Shown here piece after piece: positions 1,095-39,605 of a DNA stretch of 64,000 nucleotides (positions are counted from its first letter, which is position 1; every line of letters starts with the position of its first letter). Origin of the DNA: Clostridia bacterium. Lineage in GTDB: Bacteria > Bacillota > Clostridia > Peptostreptococcales > JAAYPU01. A program made the translations under genes and the position numbers. The notes below the pieces were generated by a model, which saw only the letters and a list, made by a program, of their open reading frames with translations, had not been told where the DNA came from and did no database searches. The stretch spans positions 1 to 64,000 of the forward strand of contig JADQBM010000008.1 of assembly GCA_016278615.1 (NCBI GenBank), given 5' to 3'.

Positions 1095-2771
1095 TTATTT
1101 ATCCTGGTAAAAACAATTTCCCCCAATAAACTCTTTTATAATGGAATTATTTAATATGGCATTTTCGTTTTCTATTGACAGAAAATAACTGAGAAATTTT
1201 AGTAAACGTCTTGCTTCAAAGTATTCTTTGTCATCTTTATTTATTTCTTTTAATAATGGCTCTGCATACTTCTTTAGTACTGCTAATTCATATACCAATG
1301 CAGAATTAAACATAACATCGGATTCTTCTTGAAAAGGAAATATATTTGTTTCTTCTCCCTTCCTCACTGCTGGCCATAATTGAAGAGTGGTTTTTGCAGA
1401 ATGCCCTCTGAATTGGCTGTCTCGGACAATTCGCCTGATTAACCTTGAATCTGTTGTAGGTATTCGATTATGATCATCAATGTTCAACTGAGTTAATGCA
1501 CTGATATATATTCTGAATTTATCCTTCTCAGGAATCTCATGAGTCAAACTACTATTTAACCCATGAATTCCCTCAATAATAATAGGCTGATTTGAAGAGA
1601 CTTTTAGAATTTTTTTGCCAAATCCCTTTTTACCTTTTATGAAGTCAAAAATTGGAATATCTACTTCTTTTCCTTCAATGAGGTCTTTTAATTGTGTATT
1701 AAACAATTCTAAATCCAGAGCCTTTAAAGACTCAAAATCAAAATCACCATTTTCATCTTTGGGCGTTTGATCTCTTTCCACAAAGTAATCATCTGTAGAA
1801 AAAGCAATGGGATCTAAACCGTTAACTTTTAATTGGATGGACAATCTTTGTGCGAAAGTGGTTTTCCCCGAAGATGAAGGCCCTGCTATTAATATAATTC
1901 TTTTGTTTTCCTTCGTGATCTTATCGGCTATATACGCAATTTTTTTCTCATGGAGTGCTTCAGCAATTCTTATGACCTCCTCATAAGTATCTGTCTCAAT
2001 TCGTTCATTCAAATCTGATACATAGGGGAGCTTCATCAGGTGCCCCCAATTCTCTGTTTCCTTAAATATCTCTGCAAGTTTCTTCTGCTCAAAATACTCT
2101 GGCAGGCCATGAGGGTTGTTCTTTTGGGGAAATCTCAAAAGAACACCTGGCTTATGGTATTTAAGATCAAAAATATCGATATACCCTGTACTGGGAACCA
2201 TATGCCCATAAAAATAGTTTTTTATCCCGCCACAAGTATAAATGACAATCTCATCTTTTTCTCGGAACTTCAGAAGTTTCACCTTTGATTCCATGTTTTG
2301 CTCTTTAAAAATAGTCATTGCCTCGCTTTTTGATATTCGTTCCTTTATAAAAGGAATGTCCTGCTGGATGATTTCTTGCATTCTCACTTTAATATCCATG
2401 ACATCACTTTCATTTATCTCTCTGGAATATTTTATTTCGCAATACAATCCTTTGCTTAAAGAATGCTCTATGGTCACATAGCAATCTCCCAGGATCTCTC
2501 TTGCTGCTTTTATGAAAATAAAACTCAAACCTCTTTGATAAATTCTATTACCATCTATATCGGATAAATCAAGAAACTCTATCTGACAATCCTCGCATAG
2601 CGCATGAGTCAATTCCTTGATACTGTTGTTAACCTTTGCAGCAACATTCCTATGTTTAAATGCCATATTTTGTACTGGCATCAGGTCTTGTATAAGTGTC
2701 CCTGATTTAACCTTTTTTTCAGAATAGTGGTGATCCGTTTTTATTTTAATATTAAGCAAATCTCCATTCAT
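1095..2771 (-). CDS. Uridine kinase-like nucleoside kinase with ThrRS-like N-terminus
   Basis: The C-terminal half is a P-loop kinase of the uridine kinase/phosphoribulokinase fold with Walker A GPSSSGKTT at about residues 297-305 and the SxDDYF-type substrate loop after it. The N-terminal half resembles threonyl-tRNA synthetase accessory regions: a TGS-like stretch (about 1-65) and a SAD-like segment containing GGIKNYFYGHMVP (about 181-193). This fusion is a known clostridial family of about 550 residues usually called nucleoside kinase; its physiological substrate is not clear from sequence. The ATG is preceded by GAAAGGGTGATAAT, a good ribosome binding site. It is followed closely by nfo and is probably cotranscribed with it. 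Confidence 0.85.
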   Translation of the reverse strand: MNGDLLNIKIKTDHHYSEKKVKSGTLIQDLMPVQNMAFKHRNVAAKVNNSIKELTHALCEDCQIEFLDLSDIDGNRIYQRGLSFIFIKAAREILGDCYVTIEHSLSKGLYCEIKYSREINESDVMDIKVRMQEIIQQDIPFIKERISKSEAMTIFKEQNMESKVKLLKFREKDEIVIYTCGGIKNYFYGHMVPSTGYIDIFDLKYHKPGVLLRFPQKNNPHGLPEYFEQKKLAEIFKETENWGHLMKLPYVSDLNERIETDTYEEVIRIAEALHEKKIAYIADKITKENKRIILIAGPSSSGKTTFAQRLSIQLKVNGLDPIAFSTDDYFVERDQTPKDENGDFDFESLKALDLELFNTQLKDLIEGKEVDIPIFDFIKGKKGFGKKILKVSSNQPIIIEGIHGLNSSLTHEIPEKDKFRIYISALTQLNIDDHNRIPTTDSRLIRRIVRDSQFRGHSAKTTLQLWPAVRKGEETNIFPFQEESDVMFNSALVYELAVLKKYAEPLLKEINKDDKEYFEARRLLKFLSYFLSIENENAILNNSIIKEFIGGNCFYQDK

Positions 2772-2850
2772 ATTATCACCCTTTCGATTCTTATCTTAAT
2801 ACCCTATTATACCAGAATATCAAGCTCAGAAATACACAAACTGCCTTTTC

Positions 2851-2979
2851 TATAAAAAAGGTGGCTTCCGCCACTCCGCTATGGAACCCTATGGTTCCCT
2901 TCGGCGACTGCTATCACAGTCTGAGCACCCTCCTTTACCGGCAAAGGGGATTCCCCTCTGCACTTCCCCCTTTTTTATA
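2851..2979. repeat. structured element bounded by 11-bp inverted repeat
   Basis: TATAAAAAAGG (2851-2861) and its exact complement CCTTTTTTATA (2969-2979) bracket a locally GC-rich insert. Inside are several short hairpins: GTGGC/GCCAC (2861-2874), GGAACC/GGTTCC (about 2885-2900) and GACTG/CAGTC (about 2908-2922). Base composition differs sharply from the AT-rich surroundings, which suggests a mobile or conserved structured element rather than random spacer. Confidence 0.55.
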
Positions 2980-3008
2980 TAACAGAAAATCGATATTTCC
3001 TATTATAT

Positions 3009-3042
3009 AAAAAAAGGATGCCTTTCGTAATAGAAAGGCATC
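3009..3042 (-). terminator. terminator of the CBS-domain gene
   Basis: Perfect 10-bp stem GATGCCTTTC/GAAAGGCATC (3017-3026, 3033-3042). On the minus strand it is followed by CC and a run of seven T, so it ends the rnr-CBS transcription unit. Confidence 0.85.
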
Positions 3043-3085
3043 TCTTGATTTTGAAAACAGTTAAGTTAAGATATAAAGAAGATCC

Positions 3086-3508
3086 TTAACTGAAATGCCC
3101 AGGCTTTGATATGGCACTTAGAGCATCTCCTGCTTCATCTACATAAATATTTTTTCTTGCAATGTCGGCCATTGCAAGCATTCCAACAAGTCTATTGTTG
3201 TCCACTACAGGAAGTCTTCTAATCTGATTTTTTGCCATAAGATTAGCTGCCTCATGTGCATTGGTGTTGGAATCTACATAGACTACATTGGTACTCATGA
3301 TATCCCGTGCAGTCATGCTTGGAGTGCCAGCAGATACAGCTCTTAAAACAATGTCCCTATCTGTCACAATTCCAACTGCTTCTCCGTTATCATTACAGAC
3401 TGGAATAGAACCTATATCATGTTGTTTCATATATTGTGCAATTTCTTCCATGGGCGTTTCCGGTCTAACATATTGAACATTACTTGACATTAAATCTTTT
3501 ACTTTCAT
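3086..3508 (-). CDS. Tandem CBS-domain protein
   Basis: A 140-residue cytoplasmic protein made almost only of two CBS motifs (about 1-60 and 70-125), each with the typical sequence IGSIPVCNDNGEAVGIVTDR or a close variant (RLPVVDNNRLVGMLAMAD). Paired CBS modules bind adenosyl ligands such as AMP, ATP or SAM and act as energy or ligand sensors. The partner of this stand-alone unit cannot be read from sequence; it resembles B. subtilis YhcV. It lies 62 nt downstream of rnr and has AGGAGG before its ATG. Confidence 0.85.
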   Translation of the reverse strand: MKVKDLMSSNVQYVRPETPMEEIAQYMKQHDIGSIPVCNDNGEAVGIVTDRDIVLRAVSAGTPSMTARDIMSTNVVYVDSNTNAHEAANLMAKNQIRRLPVVDNNRLVGMLAMADIARKNIYVDEAGDALSAISKPGHFS

Positions 3509-3570
3509 CCGTTAATTTTCCTCCTAAAATATTTTTCATCTTTTAGGTTGTGCAATTTTAGGAGAAATAG

Positions 3571-5736
3571 TCATAATATTTCTTTTTTTTCTGGATTTTT
3601 CAACTCAAAATCAATCTCGCGATTGGGTATGTTAACGCCAATGACTTTTATGGTCACTTCTTCTCCTAAAGAAAAAATCCTCTTGGTTCTTTCTCCAATA
3701 AGCTGATACTTTTCTTTCTCATAAATGTAATAATCGTCATCAATACTACTGATTCTTACCAAACCCTCAATTGTGTTTTCAAGTTCCACAAATATTCCAA
3801 AGGATGTAACACCACTGATAATCCCTGTATGGATTTCTCCTATATGGTTGGACATATACTCTGCTTTCTTTAAATCTTCAACTTCTCTTTCAATACCCTC
3901 AGCAATTTTTTCTGCCTCAGATGATCTCTTGGAAGCAATTTCAACAAAGGCCTTCAATTTCTTAGCTCTTTTTTCGTTAAGATGCCCTTTTTCAATGGTT
4001 TCCTTAATAATACGATGAATGGTTAAATCTGGATATCTTCTTATGGGAGATGTAAAATGACAGTAATAATCTGCTGCCAGGCCAAAATGTCCATAACAAT
4101 GTGGCGAATAAGATGCTTTCTTTAATGAACGAAGCATAACGGTGCTAATCACATTTTCTTCTCTTTTTCCTTTAATTTGTCTTGTAATATCTTGTAGCGT
4201 CTTGGGACGAACTTCATCATTAGCGCCTTTTAAAACATATCCAAAATTATAGATAAACTTTTTAAACTCATTGATTTTATCTATATCCGGCTCCTCATGG
4301 ACTCTATAGACAAAAGGAATTTCCATCCAGTGAAAATGCTCTGCAATGGTCTCATTGGCTTTTAACATAAATTCTTCTATAATCCTATTAGCTGTTCTTC
4401 TTTCCGCAGTCTCGACTTTTGTGGGGATACCCTTCTCATTTAAATGAATGAACGCTTCGTCAAAATCAAAGTCAATACTCCCCCTCTCATCTCTGTGTTT
4501 ATTGAGTATTTTCGCAAGCTCATGCATGCGTAATAAATCCTGGTAAATGCCTTCATATTTTTTAATGAGTTCCTCATCTTTGTCCTCTAAAATATCAGAG
4601 ACATCCGTATAAGTCATTCGTTCCTTAGAATTAATGATGCTATTAAAAATATTATGGGCGACCACTTTTCCTGAAGGGTCTATTTCCATTTCTATTGAAA
4701 GTGTGAGCCTGTCCGTTCTTGGATTTAGACTGCAGACACCATTTGATAAGTTTTCAGGCAGCATTGGCAAAACTTTATTAATTAAATAAACACTACAGCC
4801 CCTTTTAAGCGCTTCCTTATCTAATTCACCATTTTCTTTTACGTAAAAACTTACATCTGCTATATGCACACCCAAAAGATAATTTCCATTATTGAGCTTT
4901 TCTACAGAAACAGCATCATCTAAATCTTTTGCATCAGCCCCATCAATTGTGATAATACTTTTATCTCTATAGTCAGCACGTTTTTCTATCTCTTCTTGTG
5001 GTATCTCCAAAGGAATACGATCTGCTTCTTCCCGAACTTTAAGCGGAAATACTTCAGAAAGCTTATGCTGGCGAATAATTCCTGCAATATCTGTTCCTGC
5101 TTCATCTTTTTTCCCTAATATCTCTATTATTTTGCCCTCTGGACTTCTCCTTTTTTCCGGCCATACCAATATTTGCGCAACAACCTTATCTCCTGTTTTA
5201 GCGCCATTAATCCCTTCTTGAGAGATGAAAATATCTGTGCCTAATTTAGAATCATTGGGTACAACAAATCCAAAGTTGTTACCATTTTCAAAATTTCCTA
5301 CTACTTCATAATTTTCTCTTTTAATAACTTTTATGATTTCTCCTTCTCTTTTTTTGTCACCCTCTTTTTCATATAATAATCTTACTGCCACTTTATCGTT
5401 ATTCATGGCTCCGTTCATTTCACCAGATGCAATATAGACATCACCTTTACTATCGCTTTCAGGTAAAACAAACCCAAAACCCTTTCTATGCATTTTTAGA
5501 ATGCCAACTACAAGATTTATTCTGTTTGGCAAAACATATTTCTTTTTCTTTGTCTTAAATATGATGCCATCATTCTCCATTTCATCCAGCTGTTTAAGAA
5601 AAACCCCTGTTTTGCTTCTTTCAACACTAAGGTGCTTTAATATGGCTTCATCTGTCATAGGGCTATAATCTTTATTACTAAGGACCTCTATAATACTTTT
5701 ATTTATCTCCATCTTTATATCTGTCTTTATATCCAT
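3571..5736 (-). CDS. rnr: Ribonuclease R (3'-5' exoribonuclease)
   Basis: A processive hydrolytic exoribonuclease that degrades structured RNA. Domains in order: winged-helix N-terminus (about 10-70), two cold-shock-type OB folds (about 75-140 and 145-205), the RNB catalytic domain with DGADAKDLDDA at about 265-275 providing the acidic metal ligands, TSPIRRYPDL near its end, and a C-terminal S1 domain (about 635-710). The 721-residue length is usual. The first ATG is chosen because GGAGGT lies 5 nt upstream; an in-frame ATG 8 codons later lacks this. In many Firmicutes rnr sits beside secG and smpB; here secG is two genes upstream and smpB is not in the window. Confidence 0.95.
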   Translation of the reverse strand: MDIKTDIKMEINKSIIEVLSNKDYSPMTDEAILKHLSVERSKTGVFLKQLDEMENDGIIFKTKKKKYVLPNRINLVVGILKMHRKGFGFVLPESDSKGDVYIASGEMNGAMNNDKVAVRLLYEKEGDKKREGEIIKVIKRENYEVVGNFENGNNFGFVVPNDSKLGTDIFISQEGINGAKTGDKVVAQILVWPEKRRSPEGKIIEILGKKDEAGTDIAGIIRQHKLSEVFPLKVREEADRIPLEIPQEEIEKRADYRDKSIITIDGADAKDLDDAVSVEKLNNGNYLLGVHIADVSFYVKENGELDKEALKRGCSVYLINKVLPMLPENLSNGVCSLNPRTDRLTLSIEMEIDPSGKVVAHNIFNSIINSKERMTYTDVSDILEDKDEELIKKYEGIYQDLLRMHELAKILNKHRDERGSIDFDFDEAFIHLNEKGIPTKVETAERRTANRIIEEFMLKANETIAEHFHWMEIPFVYRVHEEPDIDKINEFKKFIYNFGYVLKGANDEVRPKTLQDITRQIKGKREENVISTVMLRSLKKASYSPHCYGHFGLAADYYCHFTSPIRRYPDLTIHRIIKETIEKGHLNEKRAKKLKAFVEIASKRSSEAEKIAEGIEREVEDLKKAEYMSNHIGEIHTGIISGVTSFGIFVELENTIEGLVRISSIDDDYYIYEKEKYQLIGERTKRIFSLGEEVTIKVIGVNIPNREIDFELKNPEKKEIL

Positions 5737-5836
5737 CTTTTACCTCCATCTTTATTTTATAGTTTATTCTTTCCTTATTTTGTAATTATATCATAACTCT
5801 TTAATAATTTAAGAACATTAGGTCTCCTTTGGACGT

Positions 5837-5870
5837 AAAAAAACATTCTGCCAGAAGCAGAATGCTTTTA
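5837..5870 (-). terminator. terminator of the lipoprotein gene
   Basis: Perfect 8-bp stem CATTCTGC/GCAGAATG (5844-5851, 5857-5864) followed on the minus strand by seven T. The + side also has a weak T tract, so it may work in both directions. Confidence 0.8.
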
Positions 5871-5891
5871 AATTTTTTCTTCTAAATTTTT

Positions 5892-6263
5892 TTAGTCTAG
5901 TACTTCTATTGACTGAATAATATTTTGTCCTTGATCGTTGACCTCATAAGTGATACGAACGTTTTTCCCATCAAGCTCATCATCTGGCATTGCAACATCT
6001 TCATTGATTCTTATAGCATAAGGGGCATCATTTGCAACGACCTCAAAACTATTGTTATCAATCCAGCCCGTAAAGGTACCTTCAATGGTCTGTTCATCGA
6101 TATTATCTTCTATGTTTTCATCATCATTAGGCGCTACTGGATCTTCACCCTCAATAGGATCTACTGGATCATCAATAGTCCCATCATCAGGAGTTCCAGC
6201 ACATCCAAATGAAACCAAAGAAAAAATAAGTAAAAATACAAGTAACATGGTTATTTTTTTCAT
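5892..6263 (-). CDS. Small secreted lipoprotein of unknown function
   Basis: Starts MKKITMLLVFLLIFSLVSFG and then Cys, a classical lipoprotein signal peptide with lipobox SFG-C, so the mature protein begins at Cys21 and is anchored outside the membrane. A very acidic linker rich in Asp, Glu, Asn and Pro (about 25-60) precedes a compact domain of about 65 residues with alternating beta-type segments (EGTFTGWIDNNSFEV, YAIRINEDV, KNVRITYEV). I do not recognise the domain. The ATG at 6263 is preferred because AAAGGAG lies 12 nt upstream; the in-frame TTG at 6275 directly abuts that site. The gene has its own terminator. Confidence 0.8.
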   Translation of the reverse strand: MKKITMLLVFLLIFSLVSFGCAGTPDDGTIDDPVDPIEGEDPVAPNDDENIEDNIDEQTIEGTFTGWIDNNSFEVVANDAPYAIRINEDVAMPDDELDGKNVRITYEVNDQGQNIIQSIEVLD

Positions 6264-6401
6264 GTTTAATCTCAACTCCTTTCACACTCTATTATTTCAT
6301 GTTTTGGACTTTTTAAACAAAAAAATATAATATATTTTTGTTTATTATCTCTTTAGACTAAGACTTCAAGTGTTTTGTTCCATCATTTAAAGGAAAATAA
6401 A

Positions 6402-6428
6402 GAAAAAACACCCATTCAGATGGGCGTC
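6402..6428 (-). terminator. terminator of the secG-hppA unit
   Basis: Stem GCCCAT/ATGGGT around TCAG (centre about 6416), followed on the minus strand by TGTTTTTTC. It lies about 105 nt past the hppA stop codon. Confidence 0.7.
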
Positions 6429-6533
6429 TTTTCCGAATTATTAATGTACCTTACCTTCTTCTCCCCCATTAATTCTTAAGAAAAGCACAATAATAATTCT
6501 TTTATAAAACTCATAAATTGAATGATAGCTCTT

Positions 6534-8522
6534 TTAAAAAAGGCCTCCATTTATAAATAACGGACCAAAGACTACAGCAACAATTGTCATTAACTTTATC
6601 AATATGTTAATAGAAGGCCCTGATGTATCTTTAAAGGGATCTCCTACTGTATCTCCAACAACTGCCGCCTTATGCGCTTCGCTTCCTTTTCCTCCATGGT
6701 TGCCTTCTTCAATATATTTCTTTGCATTATCCCATGCACCACCGGCATTTGCCATCATAATTGCAAGCAATACACCTGATACAAGGGCCCCTGCTAATAA
6801 ACCTCCTAAGGCTTCCGGTCCAAGAATAAATCCCATAGCAATAGGCGCAACAACTGCCATAATACCTGGAATTAGCATTTCTTTTAGCGCTGCTGCAGTA
6901 CTGATATCAACACATTTTGCATATTCTGGTTTGCCTGTACCTTCCATGATTCCTGGAATCTCTTTAAATTGTCTTCTGACTTCTTCAATCATTTGATTTG
7001 CAGCTCGTCCCACGGCATCCATTGTAAGGGCCGAAAACAAGAAGGGAAGCATTCCACCAATGAAAAGGCCTACAACAACTTTAGGATTAAGAATATCGAT
7101 AGTAGCCAACCCAACAACCTGTGAATAGGATGCGAAAAGAGCAAGAGCCGTTAAAGCAGCTGAGCCAATTGCAAATCCTTTTCCTATGGCAGCTGTTGTA
7201 TTCCCTACTGAATCCAACTTATCTGTAATCTGTCTTACTTCCTTTGGAAGTTCCGCCATCTCGGCGATTCCACCTGCATTATCAGCAATAGGACCATAGG
7301 CATCCACAGCTACTGTAATGCCCGCAGTTGATAACATACCAACCGCAGCCAGAGCGATCCCATATAAGCCTTCCAATTTGAATGCAATCAAGATAGCTGT
7401 AGCAATCAATATAACCGGCCATGCTGTTGAAATCATACCAACACCTAGTCCACTAATAATGGTTGTAGCAGGTCCTGTTTCAGATTGTTTGGCAATTTTT
7501 TTCACATATTTGAAATCACCAGAAGTATATATTTCTGTAATCTTTCCAATAAGTATTCCAACGATTAATCCCGCTATTACAGCATAGAAAGGATTCAAAT
7601 CACCGAAGAAGTATCTACTCAGAAAAAATGTAGCAATTATTACAATGAGCCCACTCACATAAGTACCTCTATGTAAAGCATTGGCTGGGTTGGTATTCTC
7701 GTCACCTTTTACAAATAAAGTTCCAATAATAGAAGCAATAATACCAACAGCTGCAAGTAAGAGGGGGAAGACAGATCCATTTAAGGGATCTATATTGGGA
7801 AGCATCACGGCAAGGGTAATAGCAGAGACAATTGAACCAACATAAGATTCAAATAAGTCAGCACCCATTCCTGCTACATCTCCAACATTATCTCCAACGT
7901 TATCTGCTATAACTGCAGGGTTCCTTGGATCATCTTCAGGGATTCCTGCTTCAACTTTTCCCACAAGGTCTGCACCTACGTCAGCAGCTTTTGTATAGAT
8001 ACCACCACCAACTCGTCCAAAAAGAGCAATTGAAGAAGCCCCTAAACTAAAACCTGTGATAATAGCTACTTTGTTTACTCCAAGGAGAATAAACAGCCCT
8101 CCGATTCCCAGAAGACCAAGGCCTACTACTGACATTCCCATGACCGCCCCGCCTTTAAAGGAGACGCTTAAAGCTTTATTCATGCCACCTTCTCTGGCCG
8201 CATTGGCAGTTCGAACATTTGCCTTGGTGGCAACTCTCATTCCGAAATAACCGGCTAATACTGAAAAAATTGCGCCTACAAGAAAGGTTCCTGCTGTTTC
8301 CCAGTTAATTCCAAATCCAAGGACTACAAATAATACCGCTGAAAAAATAACAAGAGCCTTATATTCTCTTGTCAGAAACGCCATTGCACCTTCTCTTATA
8401 TAGGATGCTATTTCTTTCATTCTATCTGTGCCTTCTTCTACTGTGTTAATGTACCTTGCAAGAAGATAAGCAAAGACAAGTGCTACAATCCCTGCAATAG
8501 GTGCAAATATCTCGTAACCCAT
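6534..8522 (-). CDS. hppA: K+-dependent membrane-bound pyrophosphatase
   Basis: An integral membrane ion pump that couples hydrolysis of pyrophosphate to H+ or Na+ export. The 662 residues form about 16 hydrophobic helices. The pyrophosphate/Mg-binding loops [13 protein letters not shown] (181-193) and [20 protein letters not shown] (207-226) are intact. The subclass marker in GNTTAA is Ala444; this position is Lys in K+-independent enzymes, so I infer K+ stimulation. Whether the pumped ion is Na+ or H+ cannot be read safely. The gene lies 72 nt behind secG and probably shares its promoter. Such pumps let energy-limited anaerobes recover energy from biosynthetic pyrophosphate. Confidence 0.95.
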
Positions 8523-8594
8523 TTTTATACTGCCTCCTTATTCTTTTGTATTGTTTGATTCATGATTGATCTCTCTCAAAAAAACGCATTACTT

Positions 8595-8825
8595 TTACTC
8601 TATTGTTACTAATAATAATGAACAAATAATAAATAATACTGCGCCAACAGTAGTAATTTTACTTAAAAGTGCTTCATAACCTCTTCCTTTTTTCTTACCA
8701 AACAATTGTTCTGCTCCACCGCCAATGGACCCAGATAATCCAGCACTTTTTCCTGACTGCATTAAAATACTTGTTATGAGAATAATGGATGCCACTACTT
8801 GAAAAACCATTAAAGCGATTCTCAT
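8595..8825 (-). CDS. secG: Preprotein translocase subunit SecG
   Basis: A small accessory subunit of the SecYEG channel. The 76 residues hold two transmembrane helices (about 2-19 and 54-74) joined by the conserved glycine-rich loop with QSGKSAGLSGSIGGGAEQLF. Length and topology are typical. The ATG follows TAGGAGGTGTAAAG. It has its own promoter at 8893-8921 and precedes hppA; in many Firmicutes eno-secG-rnr is a conserved neighbourhood, here interrupted by hppA and a lipoprotein gene. Confidence 0.93.
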   Translation of the reverse strand: MRIALMVFQVVASIILITSILMQSGKSAGLSGSIGGGAEQLFGKKKGRGYEALLSKITTVGAVLFIICSLLLVTIE

Positions 8826-8892
8826 CTTTACACCTCCTAATCATTCAATTATAATGAAATAATTAACTCTATTTTTTCTTTAAATCACTATT

Positions 8893-8921
8893 AATATAAG
8901 TAATTTGCGTCTTAAAGTCAA
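8893..8921 (-). promoter_or_regulatory. sigma-A promoter of secG
   Basis: On the minus strand TTGACT (8921-8916), a 17-bp spacer and TATATT (8898-8893). It lies about 68 nt upstream of the secG start. The rest of the 8826-9170 gap shows only AT-rich spacer and the eno terminator. Confidence 0.75.
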
Positions 8922-9118
8922 CAGAAAGATTTTATCATATGTCATATTTAAAATCAATGGATATAGAAATTAATTAAATATTTGGGAATATTCAATCTAT
9001 ACTGATTATTCTATACCATCTTACTCTTATTTATCAATACAAACAAAAAACAATACGAAAAGAACTGCTGAGGCTATAAGTAAGTAACATTTTCAACTTT
9101 GCTTTATGAGTGATAAAG

Positions 9119-9140
9119 GCCGAAAGCATAGGCTTTCGGC
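9119..9140 (-). terminator. terminator of the glycolytic operon
   Basis: Stem GCCGAAAG/CTTTCGGC (9119-9126, 9133-9140), 30 nt past the eno stop. The tail on the minus strand is only CTTTATC, so termination may be partial. Confidence 0.6.
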
Positions 9141-9170
9141 TTATAATTTTGTTTCATAGTTGAAACGAGT

Positions 9171-11221
<2,051 letters not shown>

Positions 11222-39344: not shown

Positions 39345-39605
39345 GTTTAATAGGATGGCGTGTGTTAAAGAGGTCGCGGTAAGTAATCAGTATCACAAAC
39401 AGTTGATGAAGGGGATTCATAAGATTGTGTGAAAGGTATTGCCGCCGAAGTGGTGTTTTTTCCCTTGAAAATACCATTGGGGTCATGTAAAATATGCATG
39501 GCACTGTCGTTGATAATTCTGCAGTTATCAACGGTGCGCTTTCACAGGCAGCAGATTTACTTAGGATGAGATCGTGAGTTTTTCTGCTCACGTTTTTGTT
39601 TTATC
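39345..39605 (+). ncRNA. lysine riboswitch (L box)
   Basis: Contains the L-box conserved blocks in order: AGAGGTCGCGG (39369-39379), AAGTAATCAG, GAAGGGGAT (about 39408-39416), GTGTGAAAGG (39427-39436) and GCCGCCGAAG (39441-39450). The expression platform is a terminator hairpin CGTGAG/CTCACG (39573-39592) with a GTTTTTGTTTT-type tail. Lysine binding should terminate transcription before asd. It directly precedes asd-dapA-dapB-dapH. Confidence 0.93.

Follow-up and report, generated by a model that had tools for sequence, protein, structure and literature searches.

A T-run-associated repeat with an RF02937 RNA core is probably a non-autonomous mobile element in Clostridia and related bacteria

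The window, i.e., the whole 64,000-nt stretch of DNA analysed here, contains one copy of a short dispersed repeat (about 2854–3008 on the minus strand, length about 150–155 nt), which in our assessment is probably a mobile, non-autonomous element of Clostridia and related bacteria that has the RNA RF02937 as its core, targets T runs and is moved in trans as single-stranded DNA. We observed a repeat family with boundaries defined by three empty sites, a T-run target, covarying helices and, in one genome, very similar copies.

The copy in the window

The element, GC-rich over 2851–2979, lies in an AT-rich intergenic gap flanked by two minus-strand genes, which encode CBS domains (3086–3508, minus strand; 5′ of the element) and, on its other side, a phosphoribulokinase/uridine kinase domain (1095–2771, minus strand). 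The intrinsic terminator of the CBS-domain gene, including its T7 tail, stops where the element starts. An Rfam scan of the window returned two families at gathering score. One is RF02937 (Clostridiales-2 RNA), matched over its full length with 75.7 bits vs a gathering score of 58.6; the other is a lysine riboswitch at 39360–39549 on the plus strand (100.8 bits).

The original prediction, made from the letters of the DNA, had described a GC-rich, hairpin-forming unit at 2851–2979 within an AT-rich gap, bounded by an 11-bp inverted repeat. The composition is as described, and the stretch folds at −43.9 kcal/mol on the plus strand (z −4.8) and −55.6 kcal/mol on the minus strand (z −5.3), and on neither strand did any of 200 shuffles do as well. 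The inverted repeat is likewise exact, with TATAAAAAAGG at 2851–2861, its complement CCTTTTTTATA at 2969–2979 and 107 nt between them. It is not the boundary of the element, however, as an AT-rich hairpin extends the element to about 3008. This hairpin is present in other copies and absent from empty sites; because it belongs to the element, 2851–2979 omits part of it. What stands out as an 11-bp inverted repeat is formed by the A run that follows the 5′ hairpin and the T run that closes the terminal hairpin, which face each other (Table 1).

Table 1. Features of the window copy and of the adjoining target
Feature	Position	Strand	Evidence
Intrinsic-terminator stem-loop of the CBS-domain gene, outside the element	3017..3042	-	10-pair stem with tail CTTTTTTTAT in the terminator scan
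Target T run (T7 on the minus strand), immediately 5′ of the element	3009..3015	-	sequence
5′ AT-rich hairpin ATATAATAG-GAAATATCGATTTT-CTGTTATAT, one G-U pair in the window copy	2977..3008	-	recognised in 75/121 distinct copies
A run, opposite two T runs, the target upstream and the one at the 3′ end of the element	2971..2976	-	sequence
Helix P1 (GCAGAGGGG-AAT-CCCCTTTGC); takes long insert modules in some other copies	2941..2961	-	covariation
Conserved stretch GGAGGGTGCTCAG	2921..2933	-	columns invariant or at least 90% conserved, 30 sequences
Helix P2 (GACTGTGATAGCAGTC)	2906..2921	-	covariation; missing in a subset of own-genome copies
Helix P3 (CCGAAGGGAACCATAGGGTTCCATAGCGG); takes module A in some other copies	2876..2904	-	closing-pair covariation
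Terminal hairpin P4 (GTGGCGGAAGCCAC), terminator-like	2861..2874	-	covariation; terminator scan
3′ T run (T6), end of the element	2854..2859	-	sequence; terminator scan
RF02937 match, core of the element	2894..2975	-	75.7 bits, model 1-82/82

Of the 121 distinct copies, 70 allowed the inverted repeat to be scored at both ends, and 11 of these kept at least 9 bp of it. By group, this applied to 6 of 17 copies in the own genome, 1 of 14 in Geosporobacter, none of 9 in UR.bin184/Go_SlDig, none of 4 in GWB2, 1 of 5 in Emergencia and 3 of 21 in the others. The inverted repeat is therefore no conserved transposon terminus and not a feature of the family. The suggestion of a MITE-like insertion holds insofar as the element is a dispersed, inserting repeat; its terminal repeat does not stand.

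A conserved structured RNA core

Sequence comparison identifies the core of the element as a predicted conserved structured RNA, the family RF02937, with covarying helices. For 30 chosen sequences from many genera, we evaluated a named structure with 27 pairs, in which 91.8% of the cells were paired. Double changes occurred in 15 of the 27 pairs (102 cells), a number reached by 0 of 500 shuffles, and the covariation score was 0.331 vs 0.150 for shuffled sequences and at most 0.099 for slid partners. One of the five covariation measures, the number of further pair types, was not above the shuffles (33 vs 30.3; 65 of 500 as high). Changes on both sides were found in 6 of 8 pairs of P1 (87.1% of cells paired), 3 of 5 pairs of P2 and all 5 pairs of P4 (81.5% of cells paired). 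The closing pair of P3 was U-A in 16 and C-G in 14 of the 30 sequences; the six upper pairs of this helix were invariant and hence uninformative on covariation. Outside the named structure, the arms of the 5′ hairpin matched each other copy by copy in 28 own-genome copies, with 9.18 contiguous pairs vs 5.91 in shuffled combinations (0 of 5000 as high). The counts of G-U and A-C cells (28 vs 19) are indecisive for the RNA strand; the RNA-sense strand was assigned from Rfam and from the orientation of the terminal hairpin. The original prediction had offered an unknown structured RNA as its second option, and proposed covariance modelling as a check. The 75.7-bit match and the double changes confirm a conserved structured family, which is already contained in Rfam and so not unknown.

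Most of the copies that were read in RNA orientation share a common order. A terminator hairpin, which differs from copy to copy, and its T run are followed by the AT-rich 5′ hairpin, the A run, P1, the conserved stretch, P2 (absent from a subset), P3 and the terminal hairpin, and a second T run closes the unit. Some copies are truncated or cut by contig ends, and some are enlarged by insert modules, either within P1 or within P3 (module A). The latter was present in 12 distinct sequences: the home genome contributes eight, while Clostridium aminobutyricum, Sinanaerobacter and two MAGs contribute a single one each. With its insert modules, the longest own-genome copy (L133) reaches 341 nt. Further variants were noted. 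Three own-genome copies (L130, L134, L135) retain nothing beyond the 5′ hairpin and some 20 further nt, breaking off at nearly the same place in P1; deletion, partial insertion or the ends of another element are possible causes. In the MAG Rs511_bin13, the loci L049, L050, L052, L062, L108 and L116 show a form without the AT-rich 5′ hairpin, and L108 resembles a tandem.

Distribution

By DNA similarity, the home genome holds at least 45 pieces in at least 35 places merged by position, among the best 40 of 50 candidates scored. Several of these places lie at contig ends, and two halves of one copy may fall on separate contigs. The RF02937 model gave at least 22 matches in this genome (best 150 of 204 candidates scored). 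An exact core pattern was found in 89 stretches of the genome collection, all titled Clostridia or Bacillota/Firmicutes with the exception of two in a record titled Calditrichales. These two copies (L043, L065), assigned to a bacterium far from Clostridia, may point to transfer or to a mislabelled genome.

RF02937 matches occurred in 6 of 60 relatives and, under stricter filters and with at most the best 11 matches scored per genome, in 29 of 391 genomes of the class Clostridia (the home genome is included in both counts); 21 of the 29 had two or more matches, and 362 genomes of the class had none. The search for copies in the genome and its relatives that the original prediction called for thus revealed a multi-copy element, and, with its covarying helices, this is far from a single copy lacking structure conservation. 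Carriage by phages or plasmids was considered and rejected: phage and plasmid records contained no match to the 129-nt query at E 1e-5, and the core pattern was absent from viral contigs.

Insertion at T runs

The element inserts immediately 3′ of a T run, and in most cases this T run belongs to an intrinsic terminator. Filled and empty sites were compared between two MAGs whose flanks were about 95–98% identical at the compared sites. Four sites were compared, and two further sites in the joined query gave no contiguous match. Three pairs were clear (L040/L142, L162/L220, L164/L219). Their empty sites contain a single run of 4–7 T, and in the filled sites the element follows right behind a T run, with 5–8 T on both sides. 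The sequence of the element's 5′ hairpin was absent from the target in all three empty sites. A check for target duplication revealed nothing but the T runs at both sides, compatible with a duplication of T alone. Among the three targets, L040 alone passes the rule for a terminator hairpin, whereas those of L162 (identical with the L089 site) and L164 do not, so that the minimal target may be the T run and not the hairpin before it. The empty sites could also be precise excisions.

The fourth site, L168/L221, differs. Here the element lies between direct repeats of 21 nt derived from the 5′ arm, and the element-less site also contains some of this arm; a deletion between the repeats or an earlier relic could explain this.

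Our rule recognised the 5′ hairpin in 75 of 121 distinct copies, the others being cut by contig ends, truly lacking it or missed by the rule (in L038, L043 and L113 it is visible yet missed). A T run was present at the 5′ edge of 66 of these 75 copies, and in 53 of the 66 a terminator hairpin preceded it. Among control T runs with at least 4, 5 and 6 T (n = 1,398–10,498), the shares passing the same stem rule were 19.5%, 19.3% and 20.7%, respectively; these controls were taken from the 89 pattern loci on both strands, in coding and non-coding sequence, and are unmatched for position behind genes. An ORF within 400 nt upstream was co-oriented with the element in 83 of 100 copies, the remaining 21 of 121 having no such ORF, and 12 of 121 copies overlapped a predicted ORF of at least 90 aa.

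We also considered that each copy might store a reverse-complement record of its own target, an idea drawn from arms such as CTGTTTTT/AAAAACAG. It was rejected, as none of the three clear empty sites contains the 5′ arms and the lengths of T run and A run showed no significant correlation across 28 own copies (Spearman 0.29, p 0.14). The arms covary within the element instead.

The terminal hairpin

A terminal hairpin of −4 kcal/mol or better was found in 67 of 84 scorable copies. Two copies lie directly behind T-box leader terminators: in L120 (1744–2202) the terminal hairpin is broken (0.0 kcal/mol), and L029 (1–337) is cut by the contig end. An internally deleted copy, L131 (884–1220), is located between the terminator of a glycine riboswitch and the next ORF and has lost most of the core together with the 5′ arm of the terminal hairpin. 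The loss or breakage of this hairpin in the leader copies L131 and L120, few and exploratory cases, gives a hint that the element's own terminator may work. A value of 0.0 kcal/mol was obtained for L058, L059 and L188 as well (of 84), although at least L188 was scored with its AU-rich stem cut off.

Similarity of copies and possible movers

The most similar copies were found in Geosporobacter ferrireducens, where 14 scorable copies had a median identity of 99.1%, including 7 identical cores (comparison within the Geosporobacter loci alone); for 9 module-free copies of the home genome the median was 89.6%. In Geosporobacter, the RNA strand of the element has leading-strand sense in 16 of 17 copies, judged by the GC skew of the fetched stretches and with the origin taken as the change in GC skew between 2.72 and 2.95 Mb, a bias that is confounded with gene orientation, which could produce the same pattern. 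A divergent copy in this species (L188, 1–653) stops about ten bases short of the point where a 16S rRNA match begins.

As for a mobilising enzyme, Y1_Tnp matches were present in 10 of 12 element-bearing genomes; Emergencia timonensis (G064) and the MAG G060 had none, though both carry copies. DNA comparison placed the element next to the Y1 gene in 0 of 18 fetched Y1_Tnp stretches. Clustering of the ORFs in loci L031–L126 made no parent element or shared mobilising gene apparent: the largest ORF family, from 18 loci, encodes a two-component histidine kinase/response regulator (one member scanned) and the next large one ABC-transporter-like proteins (named by eye). Nor was a parent element seen in the loci that were read.

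Discussion

We propose that the RNA-sense strand of the element would be placed at the 3′ edge of a T run, mostly that of an intrinsic terminator. By such a placement the upstream gene would keep its terminator, and the element would add a second terminator-like hairpin at its own 3′ end. Movement in trans would most likely involve hairpin-folded single-stranded DNA and a putative hairpin-recognising (HUH-type) enzyme. Insertion may be nearly harmless owing to its position, given that the terminator stays and the site is usually outside genes. A more far-reaching idea, which we regard as rather unlikely, is that the element represents a separate class of mobile elements, neither intron nor IS derivative: its folded RNA-sense strand would be the recognition device, the 5′ hairpin and A run would locate T runs that become accessible at transcription terminators or replication forks, a host enzyme other than an RVT_1-type reverse transcriptase would seal the junction, and the swap-in RNA modules would be cargo or adaptors.

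Several other explanations have to be weighed against movement as single-stranded DNA. A retroelement, whose RNA would end in U6–7 at its own terminator and be copied by target-primed synthesis at T runs through a trans-acting reverse transcriptase, would agree with the conserved, covarying RNA; a U-run 3′ end would also fit the T-run target, and RVT_1 matches occur in 8 of 12 element-bearing genomes. Yet there was no RVT_1 match in Geosporobacter ferrireducens (G062), in G001 or in the MAGs G060 and G061. The result for Geosporobacter ferrireducens, the bearer of the most similar copies, speaks against retrotransposition and made us lower the standing of a reverse-transcriptase mover. Target-primed copying is, moreover, expected to truncate the RNA 5′ end, the very end that the truncated own copies L130, L134 and L135 retain, and we consider this route quite improbable. 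The missing RVT_1 match in Geosporobacter also counts against a derivative of a group II (IIC-type) intron. Group IIC introns insert directly behind intrinsic terminators, and the target type is the same, with a terminator hairpin in 53 of 66 copies vs about 20% of the unmatched control T runs. However, neither the window nor any of 10 loci bearing the element gave a group II intron family at gathering score, and none was listed up to E 5 when 501 bases around the longest own copy were scanned permissively. An intron remnant was rejected, as Rfam found no intron core (domain V) in the window, the 10 loci or the longest own copy, and we assign next to no probability to this origin.

The 11-bp inverted repeat of the window copy brings to mind a classical MITE, with this repeat as its terminal repeat and a DDE transposase as its mover. 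Such an element would be short, non-coding and multi-copy, as observed, and a target duplication of T only is compatible with the filled/empty pairs. The conservation of at least 9 bp of the repeat in only 11 of 70 scorable copies and the lack of a parent element in the loci read make it very unlikely. Equally slim are the chances of a host sRNA or regulatory leader family that spread mainly via descent and duplication and was selected behind terminators. Rfam types RF02937 as an sRNA gene and its structure is conserved, but close genomes differ, with precise junctions, in whether a site holds the element, copies that are very similar follow different terminators and, under the stricter filters, 362 of 391 genomes of the class are without a match. 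A host role of single copies is possible.

If the proposed mobility is correct, an orphan Rfam sRNA family becomes a mobile element with a defined target, which would explain the many copies of RF02937 and their location at contig ends and would caution against seeking a ligand or a single regulated gene for it. The element also offers a testable case of a transposable element that would use some of the least harmful sites in a compact genome, the T runs behind terminators. The literature searched, including PMC2864571, contained no paper on the element in the parts it covered, and the likely source paper of RF02937 lies outside this search. The RNA family is known; within the literature searched, its T-run-targeting mobile behaviour seems to be new.

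As a mobile element, the repeat would operate in the manner of a MITE or an IS200/IS605-type derivative, with differences from each of the known systems. MITEs such as bcr1 of the Bacillus cereus group are likewise short, non-coding, dispersed and structured; a conserved terminal repeat was not found in our element. Non-autonomous derivatives of IS200/IS605 and the REP/TnpA-REP system share with it hairpins close to either end, a single orientation relative to a short fixed sequence that precedes them and the absence of a clear target duplication, and Y1_Tnp matches accompany the element in 10 of 12 genomes. It differs from them by its T-run target and its conserved RNA core with modules, and it was carried by 0 of the 18 fetched Y1 stretches. 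REP elements have a GTAG-type tag at the foot of the palindrome. Group IIC introns use the same site directly behind intrinsic terminators, whereas the element has no intron core according to Rfam, and the genome with the most similar copies has no RVT_1 match. To Rfam RF02937 the core itself belongs, over the full model length and above the cut-off. The Rfam entry comprises 82 model positions typed as sRNA, whereas the repeated unit described here covers about 155 nt. It includes a 5′ hairpin, a terminator-like end hairpin and sometimes insert modules, and its behaviour is that of a mobile repeat located in T runs.
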